Shown here one piece after another: positions 10,797-21,320 of a stretch of DNA of 24,601 nt. The stretch spans positions 1 through 24,601 of IMG/VR virus record IMGVR_UViG_3300042007_000155; one strand, given 5' to 3'. The position numbers and the translations under genes were made by a program. The DNA is from a virus. The notes under the pieces are model-generated. The model saw only the letters and a list, made by a program, of their open reading frames with translations. It did no database searches and was not told the origin of the DNA. How positions within the stretch are numbered: the first letter of the stretch is position 1; each line of letters starts with the position of its first letter.

Positions 10797-13700
10797 GTGC
10801 CGAACGTCGGCTACGCCACCATCCAGATCATCCCCTCCGTCCGCGGCATCGGCGATCAACTGCGGAGTCAGCTCATGGGGCCCGCCGAGGACGCCGGAGA
10901 AGATGCCGGAGTCGCGGCAGGCGGATCCCTCAAGGAGAAGCTCGTCGCCGGCGCGGCCATCGCCGGCGTCGCCGCCGGTGCGGTCCTCGTTGCAGGCATC
11001 ACCGAGGCCATTGACCAGGCCGGCATCACCAAGCGCCTGCAGGCCCAGCTCGGAGCGACCGGCCAGGACGCCGCCCGCTACGGCAAGATCGCAGGACAGC
11101 TGTACAGCAAGGGCATCACCGACTCCGTGCAGGAAGGCGCGGACGCCATCCGCGCCGTGGTCAATGCGGGCCTCGTCTCCCCGGACGCCACGAACGCCCA
11201 GCTGGAGTCGATCGCGGGAAAGATGTCCAGCGTCGCGACCACCTTCCAGTCCGACATGGAAATGCAGACACAGGCTGTCGCGGCCATGTTCAAGAACGGT
11301 CTGGCCCCGTCCGCCGAGGACGCGCTGGACATCATCACGGTCGGCCTGCAGAAGTTGGGCCCCAACGCAGAGGACCTCCTGGAGACGTTCCAGGAGTACA
11401 GCATCCAGTTCCGCAAGCTGGGCATCGACGCCAAGACAGCCCTTGGCCTCTTCCAGCAGGGCATCGCCGGAGGCGCCCGCGATACCGACATCATCGCGGA
11501 CGCGTTCAAGGAGTTCTCGATCCGCGCGATCGACATGTCGGAGTCGTCGCAGGACGCGTACAAGGCGCTCGGACTCGACGCGGAGGCGATGTCTCTACAG
11601 ATCGCGAAGGGCGGCGCAGACGCCAGCGCGGGCCTGCAGCTCGTTCTCGACAAGCTGCGGGGAATGGCAGACCCCGTCGAACAGAACGCTGCCGCGGTCG
11701 GCCTCTTCGGTACCCAAGCCGAGGACATGGGCTCGGCCCTCTTCAAGCTCGACCCTGCCGCGGCCGTGGGTGCGCTCGGCGAAGTCGCCGGCGCGGCCGA
11801 ACACCTCGGCCACACCCTCCACTCCGGCCCGACACACGAGCTCGAGGTGTTCGCGCGCACCGTGAAGCAGCGCTTCGTCGAGCTGATCGCCCGCGAGGTG
11901 CTACCGGTCCTGACCAAGGTGATTCACGTCTTCAACGTGGTGCTGGTGCCGCCGCTGCGGGTCCTTGCCTCGGTGTTGGCTGCGGTCCTGGTTCCGGCGT
12001 TCCACGGCCTCATCGCCGCGGGCGTGGCGATCGTCCGCTGGCTGCAGGAGTTCGGCGTCTGGCTGCTGCCGGTGGCTATCGCCGTCGGCGGCGTGACCCT
12101 CGCTCTCACTGCGCAGGCGATTGTCGTGGGTACGGTGACCGCGATCTTCTCCGCGTACCGCGCGGTGATCCTCGCCTGGATGGCAGTGCAACGCGCAGGC
12201 ATAGCCATCCAGGCGGCCTTCAATGCGGTGATGGCAGCCAACCCGGTCATCTTGATCATCACTGCGATCCTCGCTCTGGGTGCCGCGCTCGTCATCGCCT
12301 ACAAGAGGTCGGAGACGTTCCGGGCGATCGTCCAGGGAGCGTGGGAGGGCATTCAGGCCGCCGCCCTGTGGGCCTGGGAGCGGGTCCTCAAGCCGGCCTT
12401 TGAAGGCTTCATGACGGGCATGCGTGCCGTCGGCGATGCCGCGGTGTGGCTGTGGGACAACGCGATCAAGCCGGCCTTCTCGGCTATCGCGACGGCGGCG
12501 CAGACGCTGGCCACCATCTTCATTACCGTCTTCATCGCACCCACCATTTTCGCGATCAAGCTGCTGGCGCCGGTCTTCACGTGGTTGTGGCAGGAGATCA
12601 TCAAGCCTGCCTTCGACGGCATCGCCTCCGCGGCGATGTGGGTGTGGGAGAACGGCATCAAGCCTGCGTTCGGCCAGCTGGTGGCGCTGGTCCGCTTCAC
12701 CGCGACTGTCATCGTGTGGTTCTGGGAGTCCGTGACTCGGCCGGTCTTTTCCGGCATCGCTGCGGGCGCTTTGTGGCTCTGGCAGAACGGCATTAAGCCG
12801 GCGTTCGACGAGATCATGCGCTTGGTCCGCGTCCTCGGCTCCGTAATGACGTGGCTGTGGTCCGGCGTCGTCCGGCCTGCCTGGGACGGCATTGTCGCGG
12901 CTATCAACGGGGCTTGGCAGTACGGCATCAAGCCTGCCTTCGACTTCCTGAAGCGGGGCATCGACGGCATCCGTGACAGCTTCAACTCGGGCGTCAGCGG
13001 GATCAGCAAGATCTGGGACGGCCTGAAGGACGTGGCCCGCAAGCCCGTCCAGTACGTGGTCGACGTCGTCTACAACGACGGCCTCCGCAAGGTCTGGAAC
13101 ACGGTCGCCGACTTCACCGGCGCCAAGCACCTCAGCCCCTTGAAGTTCGCCTCGGGCGGCTCGGTCTTCGGAGCGGGGACGGCCACCTCCGACTCGATCC
13201 CCGCACTGCTCTCCAACGGCGAGCATGTGTGGACCGCGGCCGAGGTCCGCGGCGCCGGCGGACACGCAGCCGTCGAGGCTCTGCGCGCGAGCGCCCTGCG
13301 GGGAGGCTCGGCTTTCGCCAAGGGAGGCGCCGTTGGCGTCCCGCGATTCGCCGAGGGCGGTGTTGTGGACTGGCTGACCGGCGCCGCCCGCAAGATCGGC
13401 GGCGCCGTCATGACCGGCATCGAGTTCGTCTCCAGCCCCGGCCGGGCCTGGGACACCGCCACCCAATACCTGCGGGACCAGATCCGGTCGGGACTGTCGG
13501 GCTCGCAGTGGGCGCAGGCGCTGAGCCAGTTCCCGCTGAAGATGCTGCGCGACCTGAAGGACAAGGTAGTCTCCGCGGCCGAGAGCCTCATCGGTGGTGG
13601 TAACGCCTCCGGCAACGTGGCCGCAGCGATGGCGTTCGCGAGGTCGCAGGCCGGTAAGCCCTACCAGTGGGGCGGCGCCGGCAACCCGTCGTGGGACTGC

Positions 13701-14210
13701 AGCGGCTTCATGTCCGGCATCCAGAAGGTCATCCTGGGGCAGTCGCCCTACGGCAGGCTCTGGAGCACGTTCTCTTTCCAGGGCGGTACGGCGCCGGCAG
13801 GCTGGCACCGCGGACTCCGCTCCCCCTTCATGATCGGCATCACCAACGAGGGTGTCGGTCACACCGCCGGCACGCTCGGCGGCATGAACGTGGAGAGCCG
13901 CGGCGGCGACGGCGTTGTCGTCGGCAACCGCGCCCGCGGATACAACAGCCCGCTCTTCCATGACTGGTACGGCTTTGCCCCCGCGCTGAAGAAATTCGAC
14001 GACGGGGGCTGGCTCCAGCCCGGCCTCACTCTCGCTTACAACGCGACGGGCCGGCCCGAGCCTGTCCTCACCAGTGGCCAGTGGACGGCGATGAACCGCG
14101 GAGGCGGAGCGAGTGATCAGCGCCAGTACACGATCAACCTCAATGGCTCCTCCATGACCTCCGAGGAGCAGGCGGCGAGCCTGATGCGGCGCCTGGAATT
14201 CATCGGCTGA
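10797..14210 (+). CDS. tape measure protein with TM-rich middle, 45-residue repeats and NlpC/P60-like domain
   Basis: The longest gene of the window (1137 residues) sets tail length and is expelled with DNA at infection. GTG 10797 follows GGAGGGGAGGG. Residues 1-370 are helical, including a TMP core of the kind found in lambdoid phages (a long stretch with GQDAARYGKIAGQLYSKGI and an ALGLFQQGI motif). Residues about 375-500 are strongly hydrophobic and may cross the host membrane. Residues about 524-715 carry eight KPAF-type motifs spaced alternately 19 and 26 residues apart. Gly/Phe-rich segments follow. Near the C terminus is an NlpC/P60-like peptidase fold: a GKPYQWGGAGNPSWDCSGF segment with C968 and a VGHTAGTL segment with H1022. 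That domain would cleave peptidoglycan stems locally. At about 1.5 angstroms per residue the tail would be up to roughly 170 nm, less if the C-terminal domain does not contribute. Confidence 0.95.
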   Translation: MPNVGYATIQIIPSVRGIGDQLRSQLMGPAEDAGEDAGVAAGGSLKEKLVAGAAIAGVAAGAVLVAGITEAIDQAGITKRLQAQLGATGQDAARYGKIAGQLYSKGITDSVQEGADAIRAVVNAGLVSPDATNAQLESIAGKMSSVATTFQSDMEMQTQAVAAMFKNGLAPSAEDALDIITVGLQKLGPNAEDLLETFQEYSIQFRKLGIDAKTALGLFQQGIAGGARDTDIIADAFKEFSIRAIDMSESSQDAYKALGLDAEAMSLQIAKGGADASAGLQLVLDKLRGMADPVEQNAAAVGLFGTQAEDMGSALFKLDPAAAVGALGEVAGAAEHLGHTLHSGPTHELEVFARTVKQRFVELIAREVLPVLTKVIHVFNVVLVPPLRVLASVLAAVLVPAFHGLIAAGVAIVRWLQEFGVWLLPVAIAVGGVTLALTAQAIVVGTVTAIFSAYRAVILAWMAVQRAGIAIQAAFNAVMAANPVILIITAILALGAALVIAYKRSETFRAIVQGAWEGIQAAALWAWERVLKPAFEGFMTGMRAVGDAAVWLWDNAIKPAFSAIATAAQTLATIFITVFIAPTIFAIKLLAPVFTWLWQEIIKPAFDGIASAAMWVWENGIKPAFGQLVALVRFTATVIVWFWESVTRPVFSGIAAGALWLWQNGIKPAFDEIMRLVRVLGSVMTWLWSGVVRPAWDGIVAAINGAWQYGIKPAFDFLKRGIDGIRDSFNSGVSGISKIWDGLKDVARKPVQYVVDVVYNDGLRKVWNTVADFTGAKHLSPLKFASGGSVFGAGTATSDSIPALLSNGEHVWTAAEVRGAGGHAAVEALRASALRGGSAFAKGGAVGVPRFAEGGVVDWLTGAARKIGGAVMTGIEFVSSPGRAWDTATQYLRDQIRSGLSGSQWAQALSQFPLKMLRDLKDKVVSAAESLIGGGNASGNVAAAMAFARSQAGKPYQWGGAGNPSWDCSGFMSGIQKVILGQSPYGRLWSTFSFQGGTAPAGWHRGLRSPFMIGITNEGVGHTAGTLGGMNVESRGGDGVVVGNRARGYNSPLFHDWYGFAPALKKFDDGGWLQPGLTLAYNATGRPEPVLTSGQWTAMNRGGGASDQRQYTINLNGSSMTSEEQAASLMRRLEFIG

Positions 14211-14223
14211 GAGGAGGGACATC

Positions 14224-15075
14224 GTGGTGACCCTGCTCGGCCCGCGCACCGTCACCCTCGGCGGCCTGGAACTACTTGCTACTGATGACGCCGGTGTCGA
14301 CTGGGTGGTCGCCGACGTCAAGGGCTGGGACTCGCCGGACGTCCGCGCGGAGACCAGCGTTCGCCAGGCGGATCACGGAGTATGGGCGTCGCCTGTCTAC
14401 CTGGGGGCGCGGCCGATCACCATCACCGGGTCGCTCGACGCCCCCGACACGGCGAGCAGGGACGCTGCGGTAGAGCAGCTGCTTGCCGCGGTATCCCTCA
14501 CCGACACGCTGCTCGTCGTCGGGGAATCGACGCCAAAGCAGGCTACGGTGCGCCGGTCGGACGCGGTGCTGGTCGAGCTGATGGGCCCCTTTGCCGCACG
14601 GTACAGCCTCGCCGTCACCGCTGCCGACCCCCGCCGCTACTCCACGGTCCTGCAGTCTCAGTCGACCGCTCTGCCGTCCACGTCCGGTGGCCTGTCGGTG
14701 CCGCTGTCGACGCCGCTCAGCATCTCCACCACGACGGTGTCCGGCAGCATCACCCTGGTCAACGAGGGCACGATCGGCACCCGCCCGATTTTCACGGTGA
14801 CGGGACCGGTCACCAACCCGACGATCACTGTCCAGTATCCCGACGGCACCGTCCGGGCCCTGCTCTACAGCAGCTCCCTGGAGGCCGGCGACGAGCTCGT
14901 CATCGACACCGACCTGCACTCGGTGGTCCTCAACGGGGCCGTGTCCCGGCGCCTGTACCTATCCGGGCAGTGGCCGGAGATCCCGCCCGGTACTGCGGTG
15001 ACGGTCGGCTGGTACGCCGACTCCTACGACGCCAACGCTTTGCTGACCGGCACCTGCCGCTCGGCCTGGATGTGA
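14224..15075 (+). CDS. distal tail protein (Dit-like)
   Basis: A 283-residue protein following the tape measure, with GAGAGGAGGGA before GTG 14224. Dit proteins form the hexameric ring at the tail tip that joins tube to baseplate. The first 135 residues contain the belt-like region with DVKGWDSPDVRAET, a YLGARPITITGSL strand and a DAAVEQLLAAV helix, and a VELMGPFAARYSLAVTAADPRRYS segment that marks the end of the Dit N-terminal domain. The C-terminal half is an all-beta, galectin-like domain (VNEGTIGTRPIFTVTGPVTNPTI, then LEAGDELVIDTDLHSVVLNG), as in SPP1 gp19.1 and relatives. The assignment is well supported by order and by this domain pattern, though no single catalytic residue is involved. 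Confidence 0.85.
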   Translation: MVTLLGPRTVTLGGLELLATDDAGVDWVVADVKGWDSPDVRAETSVRQADHGVWASPVYLGARPITITGSLDAPDTASRDAAVEQLLAAVSLTDTLLVVGESTPKQATVRRSDAVLVELMGPFAARYSLAVTAADPRRYSTVLQSQSTALPSTSGGLSVPLSTPLSISTTTVSGSITLVNEGTIGTRPIFTVTGPVTNPTITVQYPDGTVRALLYSSSLEAGDELVIDTDLHSVVLNGAVSRRLYLSGQWPEIPPGTAVTVGWYADSYDANALLTGTCRSAWM

Positions 15076-18053: not shown

Positions 18054-18070
18054 CCCACTGGAGGCGCCCC

Positions 18071-18928
18071 ATGGGCGAGATATGGATCCCAGAGGCCGAA
18101 CGCCTCGGCAGCGGCAGCATCGGCGGTGCCATGGACACCCCGAACGCCCCGCCTCGCGTCGTCTGGCACACCACCGAAAGCAGCGCGGGCAACGCGGCCT
18201 TCACGAATGTGGGCGCCTACCTGAGCAGCGCCTCGTCCGAGCCGCACATCCTGTACGACCCGACCACGGACAGGCTCGGCCAGTTCGGCCCCCTCAACCA
18301 GAGCGCCCGCGCCCTGAGGAACGCCGGCTCGGTCCGCACCAACCGGACGGGCAGAGTCTGCATCCAGATCGAAGTCCTGGCTCGGGCCGGCGCTCCGTTC
18401 ACCGGCTACTGGCGGCCCGGCCGAAACTTCAAGGCCTTGCTCCGTGCGATCCGCTCCTGGGGCGTACCCGACGAGTGGCCCGCGGGCCGTCTGGCCCAGT
18501 CGTACAGCGACAACTCGCCGCGCCCGCTGTCCACCTGGCAGACCCGCGGCGGCCACTACGGCCACTCCAACGTCCCCGGAAACGATCACTGGGATCCCGG
18601 GGCCATCGACCGCACGGCGCTCCTGCGCGCCGGCGCCGCACAGCCCACCCCCTCAGAGGAGGACATCGTGACCCCTGCAGAAATCCAGGCCGTTGCCGAG
18701 GCCGTCTGGAACTACCAGCTCCCCAACCTCCGCGCCGACGGCACGCAGGACGGAACCAAGAAGTCGGCCTTCTGGTGGCTGATCTGGCAGGACGTCTTCC
18801 AGGCCCAGCTCCTGGCCGCGATCACCGCCGCCGAGCTGACGCCGGCCGAGATCACCCAGGCGCTCGCCGACGGCACCCTCAAGGTCCAGGTCACCGTCGC
18901 CCCCGCCGCCACCCCGAAGGCGAGCTGA
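18071..18928 (+). CDS. endolysin, PGRP-type N-acetylmuramoyl-L-alanine amidase
   Basis: This enzyme should cut the bond between N-acetylmuramic acid and L-alanine in the host wall. The 285-residue protein has a PGRP-like amidase domain at about residues 1-190. A VWHTTE motif contains H33, and a GHSNVPGNDHWDPG stretch near 164-177 contains H165, H173 and D175; H33, H165 and D175 fit zinc ligands of actinophage PGRP lysins. There is no signal peptide, so export depends on the holin-like proteins next door. A Pro/Thr/Ser/Glu-rich linker follows (about 190-198). The C-terminal 86 residues (TPAEIQAVAEAVWNYQLP and on) have no recognised wall-binding family. Within the gene a separate ribosome site and GTG at 18668 could make that part alone. 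GGAGG at 18060-18064 precedes ATG 18071. Confidence 0.9.
   Translation: MGEIWIPEAERLGSGSIGGAMDTPNAPPRVVWHTTESSAGNAAFTNVGAYLSSASSEPHILYDPTTDRLGQFGPLNQSARALRNAGSVRTNRTGRVCIQIEVLARAGAPFTGYWRPGRNFKALLRAIRSWGVPDEWPAGRLAQSYSDNSPRPLSTWQTRGGHYGHSNVPGNDHWDPGAIDRTALLRAGAAQPTPSEEDIVTPAEIQAVAEAVWNYQLPNLRADGTQDGTKKSAFWWLIWQDVFQAQLLAAITAAELTPAEITQALADGTLKVQVTVAPAATPKAS
18655..18670 (+). promoter_or_regulatory. internal ribosome site and GTG start inside the endolysin gene
   Basis: AGAGGAGG (18655-18662) is followed five bases later by GTG 18668-18670, in the same frame as the endolysin (codon 200). This is a better Shine-Dalgarno site than that of the full-length gene. Translation here would give an 86-residue C-terminal product, 18668-18928. 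The match lies exactly at the linker/C-terminal domain border, which argues against chance. Internal starts making free binding domains are known in some endolysins of other phages. Confidence 0.6.
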
Positions 18929-18930
18929 TC

Positions 18931-19287
18931 GTGAAGCTCTTCAACCGTGAGCCGGCTCTCTGGCTGGGCCTGGTCGCCATCCTCGTCAAGCTCGTCGCCG
19001 CGTTCGGCGTGGACGTGTCCGCCGAGCAGCAGGCCGTCATCAACGCTGTCGCCGCGGCTGCCGTCGGTCTGATCCTCGCGGTCGTCGCTGGCGACGCGAT
19101 CGGCGCCGCCGTCCTCGGCTTCGCCCAGGCCGTCCTCGCGCTTGCTGTCGGCTTCGGCCTGGACTGGTCTGCCGAACAGCAGGCCGTCGTCCTCGCCGCG
19201 GCGTCCGCGATCGTCGCGATGTGGGACCGGACGCAGATCACCGCCCCGGCCCCCGCCTCCGCGGCGCCGCCCGTCCGGAGCGTGTGA
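18931..19287 (+). CDS. holin-like membrane protein with internal duplication
   Basis: A 118-residue protein starting at GTG 18931, two bases after the endolysin stop. It is mostly hydrophobic, with about four short membrane segments (roughly residues 10-26, 38-57, 58-76 and 84-97) and a polar Pro/Ala-rich C-terminal tail. Residues 25-36 (FGVDVSAEQQAV) recur at 75-86 (FGLDWSAEQQAV), exactly 50 residues later, so the protein is an internal duplication. Size, position right after endolysin, and topology fit a holin, which would open the membrane at lysis time. GAAGGCGAG upstream is a modest ribosome site. The GTG start is preferred because the segment begins there. The next ATG follows its stop without a gap. 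Confidence 0.8.
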   Translation: MKLFNREPALWLGLVAILVKLVAAFGVDVSAEQQAVINAVAAAAVGLILAVVAGDAIGAAVLGFAQAVLALAVGFGLDWSAEQQAVVLAAASAIVAMWDRTQITAPAPASAAPPVRSV

Positions 19288-20164: not shown

Positions 20165-21253
20165 TCAGCGCCGGAACTGCGGCACGACGTCCGCGAACAC
20201 CGCCTCGGCTGCGTCCACGTGGGCGGCGTTCCGCTGGCCCTTGTTCCGCCGGTTCCAGTACCCAACCGTGGTGGCGGGGTTGTCGTGGTCGGCGAAGGCC
20301 TGGACCTCGGCGAGCGGAACCTCGGCGTCGAGCATGTGCGTGATCCGGGAGGCCCGCAGGACGTGCGGCGTGAGCTTCCGGCCGGGCAGCACCCCGGCCT
20401 TGCGGCCGAGCCGGGCCAGAAGCCGGGCCACGTCGTGCCGGTCCAGCCGCCTGCCCTCGGAGTCCAGTAGCAGCGGCCCGTCCTCGCGGCCCTCGGTGTG
20501 CGCGTCGAGGAGCTCCGCCACCGTGAGCGGCAGGGGCAGCAGGCGCTCCTTCGCCTCTTTGCGGGTCAGGTCGATGTACGAGCGGCGCCCCCGTTCGACC
20601 CGGGCGTCCATGTCGGCGGCACACATCTCGGAGACTCGGCCGGCCAGCGTGTATAGCAGCATGACGATGAGCAGGTCGAACTCGTTGCCCGCCTGCGCGG
20701 CTACGGCCTGAACCTCGTCGAGCTCCAGCACGGGCGTGCTGGTGGACGTGTTGCCCTTGTCGAACTTGGGCCGATCGTCCTGGGTGACAGGGTTCCGGGG
20801 AAGTTCCATCTTCTCCGCGGCGTAGACGTGCAGAGAGGAGAAGGCGTTGAGGTATCGTCCGATGCTCTTCGGGCTGGCCTCGTTGGCTTCCATGCGGATG
20901 CGCCAGGCTCGGATGTGGTCGGCGTTGAAGCATCCGAGGAAGAACCGGTCGTGCCCGAGCTCCTGGGCGTAGGCGGCCCAGACGCGCCGGATGTCGTCGG
21001 CGTAGGTCCGCTTCGTGTTCACGGACCCGCGGCGTGTGGATGACAGCCAGTCCATCATCATCACGAACGTCTCGGGCGTGACGGCCTCGGCGAGGAGCTC
21101 GGCGCGCGACCGGTAGATGCGTTCCTGTCCGCGGCGGTCGACCTGGACGAGGCCGAGGTCGTCGATGAGCTTGCGGCGGACCGTCTCGAACAGGTCCGAG
21201 CCGGGCAGCGCGAGAGGCTGGGCGCCCTGCTGTACGGGCAGTGAGGTGTCCAT
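20165..21253 (-). CDS. int: tyrosine site-specific integrase
   Basis: This recombinase would insert the phage into the host chromosome through attP x attB crossover. The 362-residue protein has an N-terminal region, a SAM-like core-binding domain at about 58-150 and a catalytic domain at about 172-345. The expected catalytic residues are visible: R206 in AGRVSEM, a lysine near 232-236 in LTRKEAK, H297 and R300 in TPHVLRAS, H323 in ADHDNPATTVGYW, and the nucleophile Y332. The start at 21253 is chosen because AAAGGAGAG lies just upstream; a longer frame to 21301 would run through the preceding hairpin. It is transcribed toward the late operon and converges with it. No excisionase is recognised next to it; the small HTH protein at 22238 is a possible candidate. 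Confidence 0.93.
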   Translation of the reverse strand: MDTSLPVQQGAQPLALPGSDLFETVRRKLIDDLGLVQVDRRGQERIYRSRAELLAEAVTPETFVMMMDWLSSTRRGSVNTKRTYADDIRRVWAAYAQELGHDRFFLGCFNADHIRAWRIRMEANEASPKSIGRYLNAFSSLHVYAAEKMELPRNPVTQDDRPKFDKGNTSTSTPVLELDEVQAVAAQAGNEFDLLIVMLLYTLAGRVSEMCAADMDARVERGRRSYIDLTRKEAKERLLPLPLTVAELLDAHTEGREDGPLLLDSEGRRLDRHDVARLLARLGRKAGVLPGRKLTPHVLRASRITHMLDAEVPLAEVQAFADHDNPATTVGYWNRRNKGQRNAAHVDAAEAVFADVVPQFRR

Positions 21254-21287
21254 GGCTCTCCTTTCGTGGTTGGTACCCTGATGCGGC

Positions 21288-21320
21288 GGCGCCCCACCCA
21301 CTAGACCTGGGTGGGGCGCC
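21288..21320 (-). terminator. strong hairpin between the 21332 gene and the integrase gene
   Basis: GGCGCCCCACCCA (21288-21300) pairs perfectly over 13 bases with TGGGTGGGGCGCC (21308-21320) around a 7-base loop. It starts 11 bases beyond the stop of the minus-strand gene at 21332, so it would terminate that transcript before the integrase. It lacks a U-tract in this direction, as is common for actinobacterial I-shaped terminators. Integrase would then need its own promoter in the 35-base stretch downstream, or rely on read-through, which could limit its expression. Confidence 0.7.

Follow-up and report, generated by a model that had tools for sequence, protein, structure and literature searches.

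Lysins of Streptomyces phages are, as a rule, treated as single chains in both annotation and cloning, and the endolysin gene described here raises the question of whether such a gene encodes one polypeptide or two. The gene is located in a virus record from IMG/VR that is 24,601 bases long and was analyzed in full (hereafter, the window); this record appears to represent the late region of a tailed phage of the Streptomyces type. The window contains genes for the large terminase, portal, head protease, major head protein, tape measure, tail proteins, lysin, and holin, together with a minus-strand integrase gene (20165-21301; phrog_1, E 1e-28). The presence of this integrase gene, downstream of those for lysis, makes a temperate lifestyle probable. 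The full-length endolysin ORF (18071..18928, plus strand) encodes 285 residues (30.6 kDa), which phrog_17214, Foldseek, and alignment divide into an AmpD-like amidase of the Amidase_2 fold and a C-terminal module. Its Shine-Dalgarno (SD) sequence, GGAGG (18060..18064, plus strand), is located 6 nt upstream of the ATG at 18071. The holin gene follows directly at the 3' side (18931..19287, plus strand; phrog_9752, holin, E 2e-34). An N-terminal catalytic domain, a C-terminal module, and an adjoining holin gene identify this gene as the endolysin of a lysis cassette.

The amidase domain comprises residues 1 to 190 (18071..18640, plus strand), as delimited by an AlphaFold2 (AF2) model with a pLDDT of about 90 and by an alignment of 28 sequences. 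The domain has no Pfam match by sequence, and the endolysin family phrog_17214 in PHROG matches the N-terminal part of the lysin with an E value of 1e-73. A Foldseek search of the predicted domain against the PDB returned AmpD, AmiA, and the endolysin PlyP100 (E 8e-6 to 6e-4), and residues H33, H165, H173, and D175 are invariant among the 28 aligned relatives in a zinc-ligand pattern. By fold and by this pattern, the lysin is a predicted Amidase_2/PGRP amidase, and its lysin relatives are found in Streptomyces phages and prophages. Two other relatives of the amidase (L009 and L069) terminate in a short tail rich in proline and arginine (...RRRRPRVYRAIGA) and carry no C-terminal module at all.

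A short linker (residues 191 to 199; 18641..18667, plus strand) connects the amidase to the C-terminal module, and it also encodes an internal ribosome binding site (RBS). The DNA around this border reads TCAGAGGAGGACATCGTGACC. The internal SD, AGAGGAGG (18655..18662, plus strand), has its AGGAGG core at 18657-18662 and is separated by a 5-nt spacer from a GTG (18668..18670, plus strand), which is in frame at codon 200 of 285 and leaves 86 residues to be translated. Residues 192 to 200 are disordered in the AF2 model (pLDDT below 50) and the first helix of the C-terminal module begins at residue 202, which places the internal start at the domain border. The initial annotation had described an SD and GTG in frame at this border and had judged the site to be stronger than that of the full-length protein. 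The sequence and the AF2 model agree on the former, and the predicted duplexes with the 16S anti-SD tail bear out the latter (-11.7 kcal/mol for the internal site versus -9.3 kcal/mol for the full-length start). The region around the internal start is no more structured than that around the full-length start, and other genes in the window use a near-identical signal, such as GAGAGGAGGGACATC-GTG at 14224.

A single gene with such a site is nevertheless weak evidence. When the codons were redrawn from those of related lysins with the protein held unchanged, AGGAGG and a GTG at codon 200 appeared in 18.9% of the shuffles, and any AGGAGG-plus-start site appeared in 19.2%. The site arises this often because Glu-Glu-Asp spells GAGGAGGA in GC-rich DNA, and the case for an internal start consequently rests on comparison with other lysins.

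We identified the same module behind different enzymes. Its five close homologues, including that of the window, follow the same amidase (the window and L002), another Amidase_2 domain (L160), and GH25 domains (L159 and L214); Pfam confirmation of GH25 and Amidase_2 was run on L159 and L160. All five carry CAGGAGGACATC-GTG or GAGGAGGACATC-GTG, which is to say (C/G)AGGAGGACATC-GTG, with the GTG as the opening codon of the module. Over the six codons E/Q-E-D-I-V-T, codons for the same residue are identical in 56 of 56 comparisons, as opposed to 291 of 438 (66%) elsewhere in the module, and this stretch ranks above every other six-codon window. A Glu has been replaced by Gln just before the SD core in L002, with AGGAGG retained, and Val200 is GTG in all five homologues even though these genes prefer GTC for valine (0.55 versus 0.29). 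More divergent modules follow enzymes with both GH25 and amidase domains, and their first codons likewise coincide with an RBS and start: CAGGAGGACGAC-ATG in L215, TGGAGGACGAC-ATG in L216, and CGGAGGACGAC-ATG in L217, whose module is longer. The residues next to the SD vary although the SD itself is retained, reading Q-E, L-E, S-E, or P-E ahead of the Asp in L215, L216, L217, and L196. The start residue is Val, Met, or Leu, encoded solely by GTG, ATG, or TTG, and SD spacing and start codon vary among the distant modules in permitted ways only. The initial annotation had tied its suggestion of two products to conservation of the SD and GTG among relatives, and every module homologue that we found keeps an in-frame SD and start across different catalytic domains. 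An intact and strong internal RBS and start thus occupies the domain border, and its nucleotides are conserved even though the catalytic domains paired with the module are unrelated.

Relatives of the module are few, with two clear matches among 393 Streptomyces genomes and two strong matches plus one weaker match among 395 genomes in another search. Five of the 393 Streptomyces genomes contain an exact match to the 18-mer CAGGAGGACATCGTGACC, and two of these matches are in lysins of the set described here. Two more lie outside lysins at ordinary gene starts, with a RapZ_C domain beginning at residue 3 and a CoA_transf_3 domain at residue 9, respectively, and the fifth similarly resembles a gene start. 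The candidates L161, L162, L163, and L218/L224 were discarded as module relatives, as their weak matches lay in frames that are unrelated or antisense, and the GH25 relatives in the phage collection had diverged too far to be added to the comparison.

The presence of an internal start separates lysins sharply by the class of their C-terminal module. A junction site is also present in L003, L004, L081, L194, L195, L196, L228 (gp52 of phage VWB), and L222 (with a TTG start), all of which have C-terminal parts other than PG_binding or LysM. We scored an internal site as an SD core at a spacing of 4 to 10 nt; scoring by duplex energy alone was too loose, as it credited badly spaced sites within PG_binding modules. 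In a set of lysins collected solely by protein similarity, all 16 with other modules have the site, in contrast to any site in 4 of 105 with tails of the PG_binding/LysM type, just one of which lies at the junction (phage TurkishDelight, L232), where module class was assigned by motif and by eye with a Pfam check on ten proteins (L025 and L088 having no Pfam match). The script itself scored 15 of the 16; the long L217 module was truncated by it, and the site of this lysin was seen in a separate inspection. The corresponding Fisher p value of about 1e-14 is too favorable, as related lysins are not independent of one another. The lysins with a site nonetheless span at least five catalytic backgrounds. 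Sibling lysins L005, L012, L044, L099, and L101 match PG_binding_1 and/or LysM in Pfam, and in an outside control of twelve PGRP-amidase lysins from Streptomyces phages, 11 lack a junction site, the exception being that of TurkishDelight. The two classes also differ in charge: modules with an internal start have a pI of 4.2 to 6.7 (median, 5.0), while the basic PG_binding/LysM tails have a median pI of 9.9. The TurkishDelight lysin (1495-2433) carries GGAGG, 8 nt, and GTG exactly at the LysM border, and it may be another two-product lysin or a product of chance. In the isolated and culturable Streptomyces phage VWB, gp52 is annotated as a hypothetical protein, and its gene carries CAGGAGGACGACGCC-ATG at the border of a helical C-terminal module.

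We also evaluated the start signal in a manner that is blind to reading frame. IMG/VR DNA was scanned for WDPG codons, GAGGAG, a gap of 4 to 8 nt, and an ATG in whichever frame. In 24 lysin-like ORFs, which form about twelve clusters by our own grouping, the frame remains open past the ATG, and the ATG is in frame in every one (24/24, with none out of frame). The out-of-frame cases within lysins all fall at the lysin stop, where the next gene begins. The same scan yielded 4 in-frame and 7 out-of-frame cases in nonlysin ORFs, which matches the chance expectation. The SD is encoded by Glu-Glu in some lysin clusters and by Gly-Gly in others, indicating that the constraint acts on nucleotides. The Gly-Gly version (GGA GGA) precedes quite different C-terminal modules, namely those of L107, L124, L128, L140, L148, L117, L129, and L150.

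The C-terminal module and the putative free product that corresponds to it (18668..18928, plus strand; 86 residues, 9.2 kDa, pI 4.5) are predicted to be helical, with helices at residues 202 to 215, 233 to 253, and 258 to 267, but at low confidence (AF2 pLDDT of 64). An AF2 model of the isolated module was not good enough to be used in a fold search. The initial annotation had recognized no wall-binding family in the module, and this assessment stands, as the module has no match in Pfam (including PG_binding_1 and LysM), PHROG, or PDB sequences. Stand-alone homologues of the 86-residue part, which had also been raised there, did not appear in phages, viral contigs, or about 1,100 genomes of Streptomycetaceae and related taxa. 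All faces of the helix AFWWLIWQDVFQAQLLAAITA are hydrophobic, as might be expected if it were buried within an oligomer.

These observations are best explained by a two-polypeptide endolysin, and the gene probably specifies both the full-length 30.6-kDa protein and a free 9.2-kDa module. Ribosomes initiating at ATG 18071 would produce the full-length amidase, and those initiating at the internal RBS and GTG 18668 would produce the C-terminal module alone, with fMet replacing Val200. Judging from the conservation of its signal, the internal start is very probably used in the cell, such that the 9.2-kDa protein would be made beside the 30.6-kDa enzyme. The free module could then join the module of the full-length chain, so that a multimeric hub of C-terminal modules would carry one or a few catalytic domains; by analogy with characterized lysins, we consider the chances evenly balanced that such assembly takes place. 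More tentatively, the assembled free modules might help the enzyme to hold the wall.

A conserved start could also be the relic of a gene fusion, in which the module, once encoded separately behind an RBS and start of its own, was joined in frame to lysins and its start is now unused. The module does move as a unit that starts at the RBS, and in L103, L130, L134, L147, and L156, the lysin stops and a separate gene with an SD and ATG begins at the same spot. However, an unused start would be expected to decay, yet the codons of the site are invariant while the rest of the module varies, and the distant modules depart from one another in SD spacing and start codon solely in ways that initiation permits. 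The absence of a stand-alone copy from the phages, viral contigs, and bacterial genomes described above likewise argues against this scenario, which we regard as unlikely. A different account would place the constraint on the protein, with selection for a hinge favoring an acidic E-D-[I/D] linker, whose GAG-GAG codons would form an SD fortuitously in GC-rich DNA. ED is indeed common at the site, and the shuffling result demonstrates how readily S-E-E-D-I-V in preferred codons generates AGGAGG and GTG. Selection on a hinge is nevertheless quite improbable, since the SD persists through residue changes (Glu to Gln, and Glu-Glu versus Gly-Gly), the start residue is always one with an NTG codon, valine is GTG in 5 of 5 homologues against the codon preference, and the site is almost never found in PG_binding/LysM linkers.

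The purine tract could instead serve as a conserved crossover point for swaps of C-terminal modules, with no translation starting from it. The window, L003, and L004 join different modules at the same tract behind the same amidase, as this account would have it. PG_binding/LysM modules, however, have been swapped as freely without the tract, and a crossover point leaves unexplained why all 24 open cases in the scan have an in-frame and rightly spaced start. We consider this the remotest of the alternatives, and very improbable.

The two-polypeptide reading of the window gene has characterized counterparts. In the Enterococcus phage endolysin LysIME-EF1, one full-length chain assembles with three free C-terminal domains (PMC7098653), and Lys170, from another Enterococcus phage, is cited in the same paper as being of the same two-product type (Proenca 2015). 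Like the window gene, both have one catalytic domain, a small C-terminal domain, and an internal RBS and start at the border between linker and domain. Their free C-terminal product is 8 kDa (9.2 kDa is predicted for the window gene), and their linker RBS is conserved among homologues. They differ in having a CHAP or other catalytic domain and a C-terminal domain shown to tetramerize, whereas the window module is short, acidic, and predicted to be helical, with no detected relationship. The Clostridium phage endolysins CTP1L and CD27L also release a free C-terminal domain from an internal start, as proposed for the window, but they have a known wall-binding fold, solved structures, and low-GC hosts (PMC4777826, PMC4110038); the free domain of CTP1L assembles with the full-length chain (PMC4777826). 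We found no sequence homology between the window module and C-terminal domains of the LysIME-EF1/Lys170/CTP1L type in Pfam, PHROG, or PDB sequences, and the arrangement is thus held in common but the domain ancestry is not. The full-length chain and free C-terminal product of LysP7951 are reported to assemble 1:5 (PMC9430671).

Internal starts in endolysins are already known and common, with mycobacteriophage examples included (PMC9430671, PMC6116114, PMC3314691). A survey reports predicted internal starts in about half of the endolysins of Gram-positive phages, with two products shown for four (PMC9430671), and its main text names no Streptomyces phage; we saw in it no link between module type and internal start. 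A predicted start does not always yield an assembled pair: LysP008 and Lysc2, with similar predicted internal starts, gave no second product in Escherichia coli (PMC9371310), and LysJavan488 is reported to yield two products that do not associate (PMC9430671). Ms6 LysA, Corndog gp69, and LysPollywog, from mycobacteriophages and thus actinobacterial hosts, are each described as making two products from one lysA gene (PMC6116114, PMC3314691, PMC9430671). According to these accounts, their internal start lies between catalytic domains and the short form retains an enzyme domain, unlike the short form predicted for the window gene, which would have none. Closer to the window gene, the amidases of the Streptomyces phages Samy, phiSASD1, and Success (phrog_17214) share the same amidase domain at 65 to 75% identity, but these lysins have basic PG_binding/LysM wall-binding modules and no internal start. 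A study of Streptomyces phage endolysins discusses truncated forms (PMC11705968), but its N-terminal tags mean that free C-terminal products could not have been seen.

In the literature, we found no description of this module family, its RBS-linked transfer between enzymes, or the sharp split by module class. The contrast of 16/16 and 4/105 provides a simple criterion by which two-part lysins of actinobacterial phages could be predicted, and tractable test cases are available, such as gp52 of the isolated phage VWB. Should the short form be produced, it would be missed or lost when codon-optimized or N-terminally tagged enzymes are assayed, and their activity could be misjudged. It is conceivable, though rather doubtful, that a broader rule applies, in which the small acidic helical modules of actinobacterial phage lysins form a cassette with its own RBS and start that moves between unrelated catalytic domains. 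The main product of such a cassette would be the free module, acting as an assembly hub or regulator and not as a wall-binding domain, whereas basic PG_binding/LysM lysins would act alone, such that module chemistry would predict the strategy.

Two further features of the window concern neighboring genes. The last codons of the lysin (CCG AAG GCG AGC TGA) adjoin the GTG start of the holin at 18931 (window positions 18905-18933), and a C-terminal "...TPKA" with a nearby holin start is also found in L002, L003, and L160. The tail of the module may thus serve also as a weak RBS or coupling signal for the holin. The best PHROG match of the tape measure protein (10797-14210) is phrog_971 (E 3e-197), which is labeled endolysin and is probably a tape measure family with a wall-degrading domain.
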